This document shows, one piece after another, positions 38,157 to 41,256 of a DNA stretch of 64,000 nt (the stretch's first letter is position 1; each line of letters opens with the position of its first letter). A program made the position numbers and the translations under genes. The stretch is from contig NZ_LMUO01000009.1 in NCBI RefSeq assembly GCF_009765905.1, positions 473,941 to 537,940 of the forward strand. The letters are read 5' to 3'. The stretch comes from Mucilaginibacter sp. L196. GTDB lineage: Bacteria; Bacteroidota; Bacteroidia; Sphingobacteriales; Sphingobacteriaceae. Below the pieces are notes generated by a model. The model made no database searches, was not told the origin of the DNA, and was given only the letters and a program-made list of their open reading frames with translations.

Positions 38157-38355
38157 GTTTTTTTGTTTTTTGTGTATATAAATTGTGATTAATTATTTCT
38201 TATTTATCGTTGTTGGCTTTAAAAAAACGTCCCCTGCACAGCCTGTATTCCCATTTTTAATTGCCCTGTTTTAGTAGTTAATACTTCAAAATTAAAAAGG
38301 TAACCCATGTTTTCAAAAAATAAATATAATTTCTATGGAACTAGTAGTTTATTGA

Positions 38356-38363
38356 TATATTTG
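38356..38363 (+). promoter_or_regulatory. Candidate -7 box (TATATTTG) for the riboswitch transcript
   Basis: TATATTTG matches TAnnTTTG and lies 21 nt before the first base of the S-box aptamer, so transcription would begin near 38370, a few bases ahead of helix P1. No clear -33 TTTG. Confidence 0.5.
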
Positions 38364-38384
38364 CATCATAATAGTTCTTTAATA

Positions 38385-38481
38385 CTTATCCAGAAAGACA
38401 GAGGGAAAGGCCCGATGACGTCTTAGCAACCTGTAACCTTACAAGGTGCTAAATCCTGCTTCGCTTGCGAAGAAAGATAAG
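38385..38481 (+). promoter_or_regulatory. SAM-I (S-box) riboswitch
   Basis: The sequence follows the S-box consensus. Helix P1 is CTTATC (38385-38390) with GATAAG (38476-38481). The conserved AGAGGGAAAGGCCCGATGA block spans about 38399-38418, followed by the TTAGCAACC segment, GGTGCTAAATCCTGC (38445-38459) and GAAAGATAAG at the end. S-adenosylmethionine binding normally turns expression off. The downstream gene is a cysteine desulfurase. No terminator is seen after it, so control may act on translation. An 11-nt copy of the aptamer arm (CCTGCTTCGCT) recurs at 38520-38530 and could compete for pairing. Confidence 0.92.
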
Positions 38482-38566
38482 ATGATGATAGATTTAATAT
38501 CCTAATAATGGGTATTTCTCCTGCTTCGCTGTGGTAAGTATTTTATTTAATTTAAAGCACAGCAAC

Positions 38567-39682
38567 ATGAAAATCTATCTCGACAACGCAGCAACTACAC
38601 AACTCGACTCTGAAGTATTTAGCGCAATGACTCCATATTTATTAGAGCATTACGGCAATGCCTCTTCGCATCATGCTCATGGCCGCGAGGCTAAACGGGC
38701 TATTGAACAAGCAAGAAATACTATAGCAAGCCTGATTAATGCTGATCCATCCGAAATTATTTTTACCGGAGGAGGTACCGAAGCCGATAATACCGCTTTA
38801 ATATCAGCCGAAGGCAGAAGGATTATCACAACACCTTTAGAACACCATGCGGTATTGCATGCATTAAACAAACCACATTATCTATCTGTAAACAATAAAG
38901 GCGAAATCAACCTGACAGAACTGAAACTTTTACTTAGTGATGGTGTGCCGTCTTTCGTGTCCATCATGCATGCCAATAATGAAATTGGGGTTGTTAATGA
39001 TATTGAGGCTATCGGCAGGTTGTGTGAAAGCTACGGTGCGATTTTTCACAGCGATACGGTACAAACCATTGCACACTATCGCCACGATCTGCAAAAATTA
39101 AAGGCTCATTATATTACCTGTTCGGCCCATAAATTTCATGGTCCAAAGGGAGTGGGATTTTTGTATTGTCGTAAGGGCACAAATTTATCACAGTTATTAC
39201 ATGGCGGTTCGCAGGAGCGAAAATTGCGTGCCGGGACGGAAAATATTGCCGGTATCATCGGCCTTGCTAAAGCTTTTGAGATTGCCTGTCGGGGTATAGA
39301 TGAACATAAGCAACATATCCAAGGCTTAAAAAGTCGGCTTGTTGAAAGGTTGAAAAATCTACCTGGTATCACATTTAACAGTACGTCGGCTACTGAAGAT
39401 AGCCTTTACACGGTGTTGAGTGTGAATTTTCCTTCAACCGGTATTGATCTTTTGGCTTTGCTTGATCAAAATAATATTTCCGTATCAGGCGGCAGCGCAT
39501 GTTCAACTGGGTCTGCATCGCATGTGCTTCAGGCTATAAAAAGTGATAGATTAAAAGATACCGTCCGCTTTTCGTTCAGTAAGTTTAATACTGCGGAAGA
39601 AATAGATTACACCGCTGATATATTGTATAAGTTATTTAAGGTGACTAATAATAAAATCAGAGAAGTTGAATATTCGATCTAA
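38567..39682 (+). CDS. Cysteine desulfurase (IscS/NifS-type)
   Basis: The ATG at 38567 starts the family-typical MKIYLDNAATTQLD; an in-frame GTG at 38531 would only add a non-conserved tail. The protein is 371 residues, a fold-type I PLP enzyme. It has FTGGGTEADNTAL (66-78), HANNEIG (135-141), the PLP lysine Lys189 in CSAHKFHGPKGVG, and the active-site Cys312 in SVSGGSACSTGSASHVL on the class-I-type loop. It takes sulfur from cysteine for iron-sulfur clusters or thiolated tRNA. It stands alone under a SAM riboswitch, without iscU or other cluster genes in the window. Its 3' end overlaps the convergent MgtC/DUF4010 gene by 51 bp. Confidence 0.93.
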   Translation: MKIYLDNAATTQLDSEVFSAMTPYLLEHYGNASSHHAHGREAKRAIEQARNTIASLINADPSEIIFTGGGTEADNTALISAEGRRIITTPLEHHAVLHALNKPHYLSVNNKGEINLTELKLLLSDGVPSFVSIMHANNEIGVVNDIEAIGRLCESYGAIFHSDTVQTIAHYRHDLQKLKAHYITCSAHKFHGPKGVGFLYCRKGTNLSQLLHGGSQERKLRAGTENIAGIIGLAKAFEIACRGIDEHKQHIQGLKSRLVERLKNLPGITFNSTSATEDSLYTVLSVNFPSTGIDLLALLDQNNISVSGGSACSTGSASHVLQAIKSDRLKDTVRFSFSKFNTAEEIDYTADILYKLFKVTNNKIREVEYSI

Positions 39683-40948: not shown

Positions 40949-41020
40949 AGGCGTGAGAACGGGTTCGAACCGTTGTAAGAAGTTTTGCAGACTCCCGCCT
41001 AACCACTCGGCCACTCCGCC
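40949..41020 (-). tRNA. tRNA-Cys (GCA), divergent, with a bulged acceptor stem
   Basis: Read on the minus strand, GGCGGAG (5' acceptor), a GCC/GGC D stem, a GGAGT-CTGCAAA-ACTTC anticodon arm with anticodon GCA, and an AACGG-TTCGAAC-CCGTT T arm are all present. The 3' acceptor strand is CTCACGCC: it pairs with GGCGGAG only if one A is bulged out. The length is 72 nt. It is 165 nt downstream of a normal tRNA-Cys on the same strand. It may be a drifting second copy. Confidence 0.8.
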
Positions 41021-41185
41021 TTATTGTTTAAAAGTTTAGGGTTTTTATTAAAAAATAATTCAGAAAAACAGGGGAGGAGCTGTAAATGGCAGCAGCAATT
41101 TATGCTCCTTCCACTGTTCTTGCTGAATAACCAAACTAAAAAAAACTATAAATCAACTAATTATCTATTTCCACTTAGATAATTG

Positions 41186-41256
41186 AGGTCAGAAGCGGAT
41201 TTGAACCGCTGTATCAGGTTTTGCAGACCTGTGCCTAACCGCTCGGCCATCTGACC
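41186..41256 (-). tRNA. tRNA-Cys (GCA)
   Basis: On the minus strand the cloverleaf is regular: acceptor GGTCAGA / TCTGACC, D stem GCC/GGC, anticodon arm CAGGT-CTGCAAA-ACCTG with anticodon GCA, variable loop ATAC and T arm AGCGG-TTCAAAT-CCGCT. The length is 71 nt including the discriminator T. CCA is not encoded. Confidence 0.93.

Follow-up and report, generated by a model that had tools for sequence, protein, structure and literature searches.

A SAM-I riboswitch conserved in front of a cysteine desulfurase gene in Mucilaginibacter, and its wider association with tRNA-Cys genes

The DNA analysed here, a stretch of 64,000 nucleotides from Mucilaginibacter sp. L196 (referred to below as the window), comes from a genus of soil bacteria and carries an aptamer of the SAM-I class, which responds to the methyl donor SAM, directly ahead of a gene for a cysteine desulfurase. 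The desulfurase gene stands alone and faces an MgtC/DUF4010 gene, and two tRNA-Cys genes lie beyond it in the convergent orientation. The features of the locus, including those predicted from folding, are collected in Table 1.

Table 1. Features of the riboswitch-desulfurase locus and of the tRNA genes near it, in window coordinates
Feature	Position	Strand	Basis and remarks
Bacteroidota-type -7 promoter motif TAnnTTTG (TATATTTG)	38356..38363	+	19 nt 5' of the aptamer
5' partner of the alternative anti-aptamer helix (P1 5' strand plus CAG)	38381..38393	+	duplex energy, forced folding
SAM-I riboswitch aptamer (P1-P4)	38383..38483	+	RF00162; same site in whole-genome search
Repeat copy 1, 5' arm of aptamer helix P4 plus flank	38455..38465	+	not a conserved switch element
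Repeat copy 2	38520..38530	+	such a repeat beyond shuffles in 2/40 leaders
Candidate sequestor hairpin, GCUGUG (38528-38533)/CACAGC (38558-38563), adjoining the ATG	38528..38563	+	MFE and forced folding, single-sequence prediction
Anti-aptamer element, complementary to the aptamer 5' end	38529..38542	+	duplex energy, forced folding
Cysteine desulfurase gene, riboswitch-linked paralogue, PLP-dependent, IscS/NifS-like	38567..39682	+	ORF (ATG 38567, stop 39680-39682, 371 aa), Pfam, PDB match
Second extra tRNA-Cys gene, in tandem	40950..41020	-	Rfam, tRNA-Cys model; not in ARAGORN window scan
Extra tRNA-Cys (GCA) gene, convergent with the desulfurase	41185..41256	-	ARAGORN, Rfam, tRNA-Cys model

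A preliminary description of this DNA, made without database searches, had read the locus as a SAM-I riboswitch placed 86 nt ahead of an IscS/NifS-type gene with no terminator between them. A covariance scan with Rfam bears out the riboswitch: RF00162 matches the window with 86.5 bits (E 4.1e-19; gathering score 44.4) over its full length, 1-108. The aptamer aligns along the entire RF00162 consensus with only two end pairs non-standard, and it forms row 1 (L001) of a 25-sequence alignment with 36 invariant columns; the score above the gathering value and the conserved core place it within SAM-I. The adjacency and the missing terminator also stood, with none found by a terminator scan of 38200-38700, but the distance is 83 nt (38484-38566) rather than 86. 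The methionine gene that might have been overlooked between aptamer and desulfurase is absent, inspection of those 83 nt having revealed no ORF. Of 40 non-redundant desulfurase leaders (the 62 collected less copies, which leaves 58 distinct, and near-copies), 39 have a motif of the form TAnnTTTG, which we take to be the Bacteroidota -7 element, in the 60 nt that precede the aptamer; shuffled sequences gave a mean of 2.5 and a maximum of 7. This adjoining promoter motif suggests that the transcript would start shortly 5' of the aptamer.

The assignment of the next gene to the IscS/NifS type likewise proved sound. Its product carries the PF00266 Aminotran_5 domain (aminotransferase class V; Pfam, 267.4 bits), and its best match in the PDB is 1ecx (E 6.4e-73), which we take to be the NifS-like protein of T. 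maritima. Lys189, His93 and Cys312 of the window enzyme align with Lys203, His99 and Cys324 of 1ecx, presumably the catalytic residues, the PLP lysine and the catalytic cysteine among them. Domain, PLP lysine and catalytic cysteine together place the protein among the class V PLP desulfurases, and the catalytic cysteine is retained in all 61 riboswitch-linked proteins that were aligned. The enzyme nevertheless reaches no cut-off among the NCBIfam models listed, with scores against cut-offs (in bits) of 357/530.75 for NifS, 287.5/480 for DndA, 264.8/643.2 for IscS and 171.8/475.1 for SufS. The loop that bears the cysteine is two residues shorter in all 55 aligned linked Mucilaginibacter proteins (the partial linked protein L177 excluded) than in 97 unlinked proteins (from 101 unlinked loci, of which 4 yielded none), and in six linked proteins from other genera it is one residue shorter (L093) or has no deletion.

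These enzymes also form a lineage of their own. Four further desulfurase-like matches, at E values up to 1e-10, are present in the same genome. A tree of 155 proteins unites 58 linked rows in one clade (SH-aLRT 100), whose nearest group consists of Hymenobacter-Pontibacter desulfurases; SAM-I is absent from the fetched flanks of that group. The paralogue L187, which we infer to be the housekeeping desulfurase of the genome, falls outside the linked clade, and the linked copies have no place in the other Sphingobacteriaceae desulfurase clade.

The order of riboswitch and gene is kept among relatives, another point that the preliminary description had proposed to check. A search on protein similarity alone across 149 Mucilaginibacter genomes returned 53 closest homologues in 51 genomes, and 51 of them, from 50 genomes, have a SAM-I aptamer just upstream on the same strand; the two copies that do not, L184 and L186, cluster in the tree with the other paralogue, which is presumably the housekeeping one. 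At the threshold used, 99 of the 149 genomes have no linked copy. Among 80 named loci listed in a protein search, SAM-I lies directly upstream in six, confirmed with Rfam (five Mucilaginibacter and Pedobacter sp. BAL39), and the fetched flanks of the remaining named loci among those 80 gave no SAM-I near desulfurases beyond the Sphingobacteriaceae. Five more pairs from three other genera of the family (L005, L009, L014, L016, L031) appear among the best riboswitch matches listed; because they were chosen by their riboswitch, they are not independent support.

Judged by this comparison of sequences, aptamer and desulfurase gene are kept together across the genus and their association is far beyond chance. 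We regard it as virtually certain that the two make up a conserved unit. To our knowledge a cysteine desulfurase is not a classical SAM-I target, which might speak for chance neighbours, the riboswitch belonging to another, lost or antisense gene and the desulfurase being uncontrolled. Against this stands the order kept in the 51 genus copies, in Pedobacter sp. BAL39 and in the five genomes of three other genera, with gaps between aptamer and gene of 53-109 nt across the 62 leaders, and the probability of such an accident seems close to nil.

How the aptamer might act on the gene is best approached through the leader. The preliminary description had located a possible switch in an 11-nt repeat (CCTGCTTCGCT), each copy of which can pair with GCGAAG at 38467-38472. 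The elements lie where it placed them, and dinucleotide shuffling of the window leader rarely reproduces such a repeat (p 0.005); GCGAAG is, by the RF00162 alignment, the 3' arm of aptamer helix P4. The arrangement is not conserved, however: repeats of the P4 5' arm go beyond shuffles in 2 of 40 leaders (the window and L185), being common to the nearest relatives and otherwise almost absent, and in 3 of the 40 the P4 3' arm finds a pairing partner farther downstream. A switch built on the P4 repeat was rejected on these two counts. What is conserved is an element that pairs with the 5' end of the aptamer.

This anti-aptamer element is found at p<0.05 in 36 of the 40 leaders, with a median duplex energy of -16.4 kcal/mol compared with -7.2 in shuffles. 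It stands before the start codon, and its partner is the P1 5' strand with the CAGAAAG that follows. The four leaders that fail the test (L093, L005, L016, L031) are all from other genera. In the window the duplex amounts to -14.6 kcal/mol against a shuffled mean of -8.4 (p 0.030). Leaders paired with their own element do better than with one swapped in from another leader (-16.4 versus -14.9; own better in 28/40, Wilcoxon p 0.005), a modest difference among rows that are related by descent.

Folding predictions, which treat leaders related by descent and place pseudoknots, ligand and kinetics outside the model, point to a consequence for the start region. Across the 40 leaders it is unpaired to 0.64 when the element is engaged, as opposed to 0.50; the gain of 0.144 compares with 0.070 when the intervening region is shuffled (p 2e-5) and is seen in 33 of the 40 leaders, the other seven showing none. 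In the window leader the two competing folds are predicted to be nearly equal in energy (-49.1 kcal/mol with P1, -49.4 with the anti-aptamer helix), and forcing them leaves the start region unpaired to 0.42 and 0.76, respectively; the accessibility change of this single leader, 0.19, is not above that of its own shuffles, 0.21. Here the candidate sequestor hairpin is predicted to overlap the anti-aptamer element in its bases.

The predictions are consistent with a switch of the following kind. With SAM plentiful, P1 would close and release the anti-aptamer element, which would then pair with the region of the start codon and keep translation low. With SAM scarce, the element would pair instead with the 5' strand of the aptamer, P1 would open, the start region would be free and the enzyme would be made. 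An OFF switch acting at translation is the probable design, its ON/OFF direction and its response to SAM both being what we infer. Transcription attenuation, Rho-dependent termination or an ON switch would explain the leader differently. These draw on nine SAM-I sites, described below, that directly precede a tRNA-Cys gene, where control of translation is impossible and where six of the nine have a run of at least seven T between the aptamer-like element and the tRNA. Yet no terminator was found in the window and a simple scan detected a terminator-like site in just one of the 40 desulfurase leaders; the accessibility of the start region differs between the folds as an OFF switch predicts. The anti-aptamer platform was also considered for the direct tRNA leaders and set aside there: the element goes beyond shuffles in only two of the nine, and therefore another platform possibly operates at those sites. 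For the desulfurase leaders, termination or an ON switch seems rather unlikely.

The distribution of the element among other leaders sets it apart from the genes of methionine synthesis. In a test by leader class, which omitted sites with a measured gap below 45 nt (the TlpA class comprised 7 of 9 sites), the element reached p<0.05 in 7 of 7 TlpA, 3 of 4 SusC and 2 of 8 peroxiredoxin leaders, and in 0 of 4 AhpC/TlpA, 0 of 29 metY and 1 of 30 metH leaders; 13 of the 15 desulfurase leaders were tested and 12 were significant. Among 22 further leaders of mixed kind from the family, nine gave p<0.05 and one 0.050. The metY and metH counts rule out a platform general to all SAM-I riboswitches, and the desulfurase would be governed through a platform other than the one used by the methionine genes in the same cell.

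SAM-I is nearly universal in the family, occurring in at least 148 of 151 sampled Sphingobacteriaceae genomes. A whole-genome search of the strain itself (5.33 Mb in 20 contigs) found three sites, ahead of the desulfurase, of metY-metX-hom and of metH. The MetY protein lies above the TIGR01326 cut-off and the homoserine dehydrogenase above its NCBIfam cut-off, MetX falls below the cut-offs, and MetH matches TIGR02082 with 1770.5 bits; the desulfurase thus shares its type of regulator with methionine-synthesis genes of the same genome. A survey took in all 111 SAM-I sites of 30 genomes, half of which have a linked desulfurase. SAM-I stood before metH in 30/30 and before metY in 29/30 (in G156 a metX-like gene follows one site), and before a desulfurase in 15/15 of the genomes that have the linked copy and 0/15 of the others. 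Further targets among the 111 were TlpA-like thioredoxins (9), peroxiredoxins (8), SusC-type receptors (4) and AhpC/TlpA proteins (4), gene classes that were defined by similarity clusters and N-terminal sequence, with Pfam applied to representatives only.

MetY, an O-acetylhomoserine sulfhydrylase, uses sulfide. The desulfurase may take sulfur from cysteine and pass it on, as sulfide or persulfide, to the synthesis of homocysteine by MetY, so that low SAM would call up MetY, MetX, Hom and MetH together with an enzyme that frees cysteine sulfur. That supplying sulfur for methionine synthesis is its main purpose is possible, our confidence in this part falling a little short of an even balance. 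For the explanation as a whole, namely a dedicated, non-housekeeping cysteine desulfurase placed under SAM-I by way of a translational OFF switch and working in the service of methionine synthesis, the balance tips slightly in favour. Two simple reasons for such an enzyme were discarded as unsupported: a substitute for missing sulfate assimilation, as PF01507 (CysH/CysD-type) is present in 141 of 149 genomes, and a substitute for missing transsulfuration, as the genome has transsulfuration-type PLP enzymes (four full-length Cys/Met-PLP enzymes, one of them MetY and one above the cystathionine gamma-synthase cut-off). With both widespread or present, no gap in sulfur supply forces the role of the desulfurase.

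Many linked loci adjoin redox genes and tRNA-Cys genes, not methionine genes, and this opens a second view of the enzyme's purpose. Instead of feeding methionine synthesis, the desulfurase could be a thiol-redox or H2S enzyme that forms the sulfur branch of a module repressed by SAM, whose other members would be peroxiredoxin, TlpA-type thioredoxin, a DsbD-like protein and SusC/SusD uptake. Of the 37 non-redundant linked loci whose flanks are long enough to judge, 14 have a gene for a thioredoxin-fold or DsbD_N protein immediately after the desulfurase, on its strand and no more than 120 nt away; the TlpA, peroxiredoxin, SusC and AhpC/TlpA genes counted above have SAM-I aptamers of their own elsewhere in the genus; and the orders desulfurase-SusC-SusD and desulfurase-TlpA-SusC-SusD occur (L307, L305). 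Against these neighbourhoods, the window gene is alone, the other 23 loci lack such a neighbour (their next gene is of a different kind, farther off or on the opposite strand), the constant members of the regulon are MetY and MetH, and uptake and reduction of organosulfur compounds would feed methionine equally well. We consider the redox role unlikely and retain sulfur supply for methionine as the preferred purpose.

SusC/SusD pairs 3' of SAM-I are found behind the desulfurase in L305 and L307, behind TlpA and before a tRNA-Cys gene in L309, and also in L300; all four are candidates for the uptake of sulfur nutrients. SAM-I sites also stand in a redox cluster (L302, L303, L301, L308) with genes for DsbD_N, two AhpC/TlpA proteins, YceI, a di-haem cytochrome c peroxidase, a TonB receptor and an Fe/Mn superoxide dismutase. 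The desulfurase heads this cluster in L302 and L303 and is absent as its head in L301 and L308. Its genes were assigned by Pfam in L302 and by similar N-termini in L303, L301 and L308, of which L301 is incomplete at its end.

The association of SAM-I with tRNA-Cys is a more surprising lead than the riboswitch-desulfurase unit. Five genes of the genome match the tRNA-Cys model, and no SAM-I in the window belongs to the tRNA-Cys at 41185-41256 itself. At 15 of 37 non-redundant loci a tRNA-Cys gene lies in the flanks fetched for the linked desulfurase (1.5 kb in most cases), where the only other tRNA is one tRNA-Arg. Across the 30 genomes of the survey the tRNA-Cys model returned 89 genes at 57 bits or more, that is 30 housekeeping genes, defined as the best-scoring one per genome, and 59 extra; rows at or below 51.9 bits, many of 81 nt, were dropped by score as other tRNAs. 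Within 8 kb of a SAM-I aptamer, whatever the strand, there are 38 of the 59 extra genes, and 30 of these, spread over 24 of the 30 genomes, are downstream of it and share its strand; none of the 30 housekeeping genes is found within that distance, and the expectation under random placement is about 0.16. ARAGORN identified 24 tRNAs at the 111 SAM-I loci, all of them tRNA-Cys, 23 downstream on the same strand and one on the opposite strand.

These tRNA genes are not always in the company of a desulfurase. At nine sites (L240, L242, L248, L249, L250, L256, L261, L265, L273) tRNA-Cys follows the aptamer directly, at a gap of 46-53 nt and with no protein gene between; the tRNAs there are of a variant type in which A1 stands opposite G72 or A72. 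C33 occupies the anticodon loop in L240, L242 and L256, and in L265 and L273 a long insertion in the P3 region stretches the aptamer matches to 183 and 200 nt. All eight peroxiredoxin SAM-I sites are also followed by tRNA-Cys, the match in G156 being weak (65 bits). At L298 (G161:C1:60708-62174) SAM-I is succeeded by a short, degenerate remnant of the start of a desulfurase gene and then by tRNA-Cys, as if a unit of riboswitch, desulfurase and tRNA had lost its desulfurase.

The variant type is frequent downstream of SAM-I. A count of positions 1 and 72, which left out one of the 89 tRNA rows (G161:C1:62634), found A1 opposite G72 (14) or A72 (4) in 18 of the 30 tRNAs downstream of SAM-I and G1-C72 in 30 of 30 housekeeping genes, and no A1 variant in the seven tRNAs retrieved that lie near SAM-I and not downstream of it. 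The variant is not confined to SAM-I operons, for A1 opposite G72 also occurs in 6 of the 21 retrieved extra tRNAs that are more than 8 kb from any SAM-I.

Whether SAM-I controls a cysteine-economy regulon, made up of the dedicated desulfurase and extra tRNA-Cys genes, many with A1 opposite G72 or A72, appears to us evenly poised. If it does, a riboswitch would govern tRNA genes, and the Cys-tRNA could possibly have a special role outside ordinary elongation; were the link to tRNA-Cys regulatory, the amount of a single tRNA species would be set by an RNA that senses a metabolite. A more particular proposal is that the desulfurase acts on or with tRNA-Cys, for instance in tRNA thiolation or another Cys-tRNA-dependent step, and that SAM-I co-regulates the two. 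In six of the 15 linked genomes a tRNA-Cys gene lies at most 1.9 kb 3' of the desulfurase SAM-I in the same orientation, and nine have one no farther than 3 kb away when both strands are counted; in L303 it is placed between the desulfurase and DsbD_N, and the cysteine loop is shorter than in the paralogue. But tRNA-Cys follows SAM-I at the nine direct and eight peroxiredoxin sites with no desulfurase present, and no tRNA-modification gene was noticed beside the desulfurase in the loci read through. The proposal is improbable on this evidence, and we continue to favour a SAM-I riboswitch that controls the desulfurase for the sake of sulfur metabolism.

Our search of the literature found no description of a riboswitch-desulfurase unit. 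The RNA is an ordinary member of the SAM-I/S-box class (RF00162), full-length with P1-P4 and scoring 86.5 bits, and it differs in what it precedes, a cysteine desulfurase, a target absent from the passages on SAM regulons that were consulted, and in its platform, an antisense copy of the aptamer 5' end near the start codon. SAM is the co-repressor of MetJ. MetJ is predicted to regulate the cysteine desulfurase csd in Vibrionales, according to PMC4239095, and in both cases control of a cysteine desulfurase would fall to a regulator of the methionine regulon; there it is a protein repressor with a DNA operator, and here an RNA switch in Bacteroidota. Translational platforms built from antisequestor and sequestor are described in PMC2258182, which names translation attenuation as the most common mode in groups other than Firmicutes. 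As in those platforms, mutually exclusive pairings are predicted to decide whether the start region is buried; the difference is that the partner of the antisequestor here is the aptamer's own 5' strand, and the element is missing from the metY leaders and from all but one of the metH leaders of these genomes. The enzyme shares with the IscS/NifS desulfurases (TIGR03402, TIGR02006; 1ecx) the fold family, the PLP lysine and the catalytic cysteine, and it differs from them in scoring below the NCBIfam cut-offs (NifS 357 versus 530.75), in its separate clade and, within the genus, in a cysteine loop two residues shorter; E. coli IscS is recorded as producing H2S in PMC6797615. Control of this kind would tie the removal of sulfur from cysteine to the level of SAM through an RNA, a link not found for this lineage in the literature searched, and would offer an explanation, open to test, of why the cell has a second desulfurase. 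Set beside these systems, the desulfurase is a new target within a known kind of regulator, the S-box.
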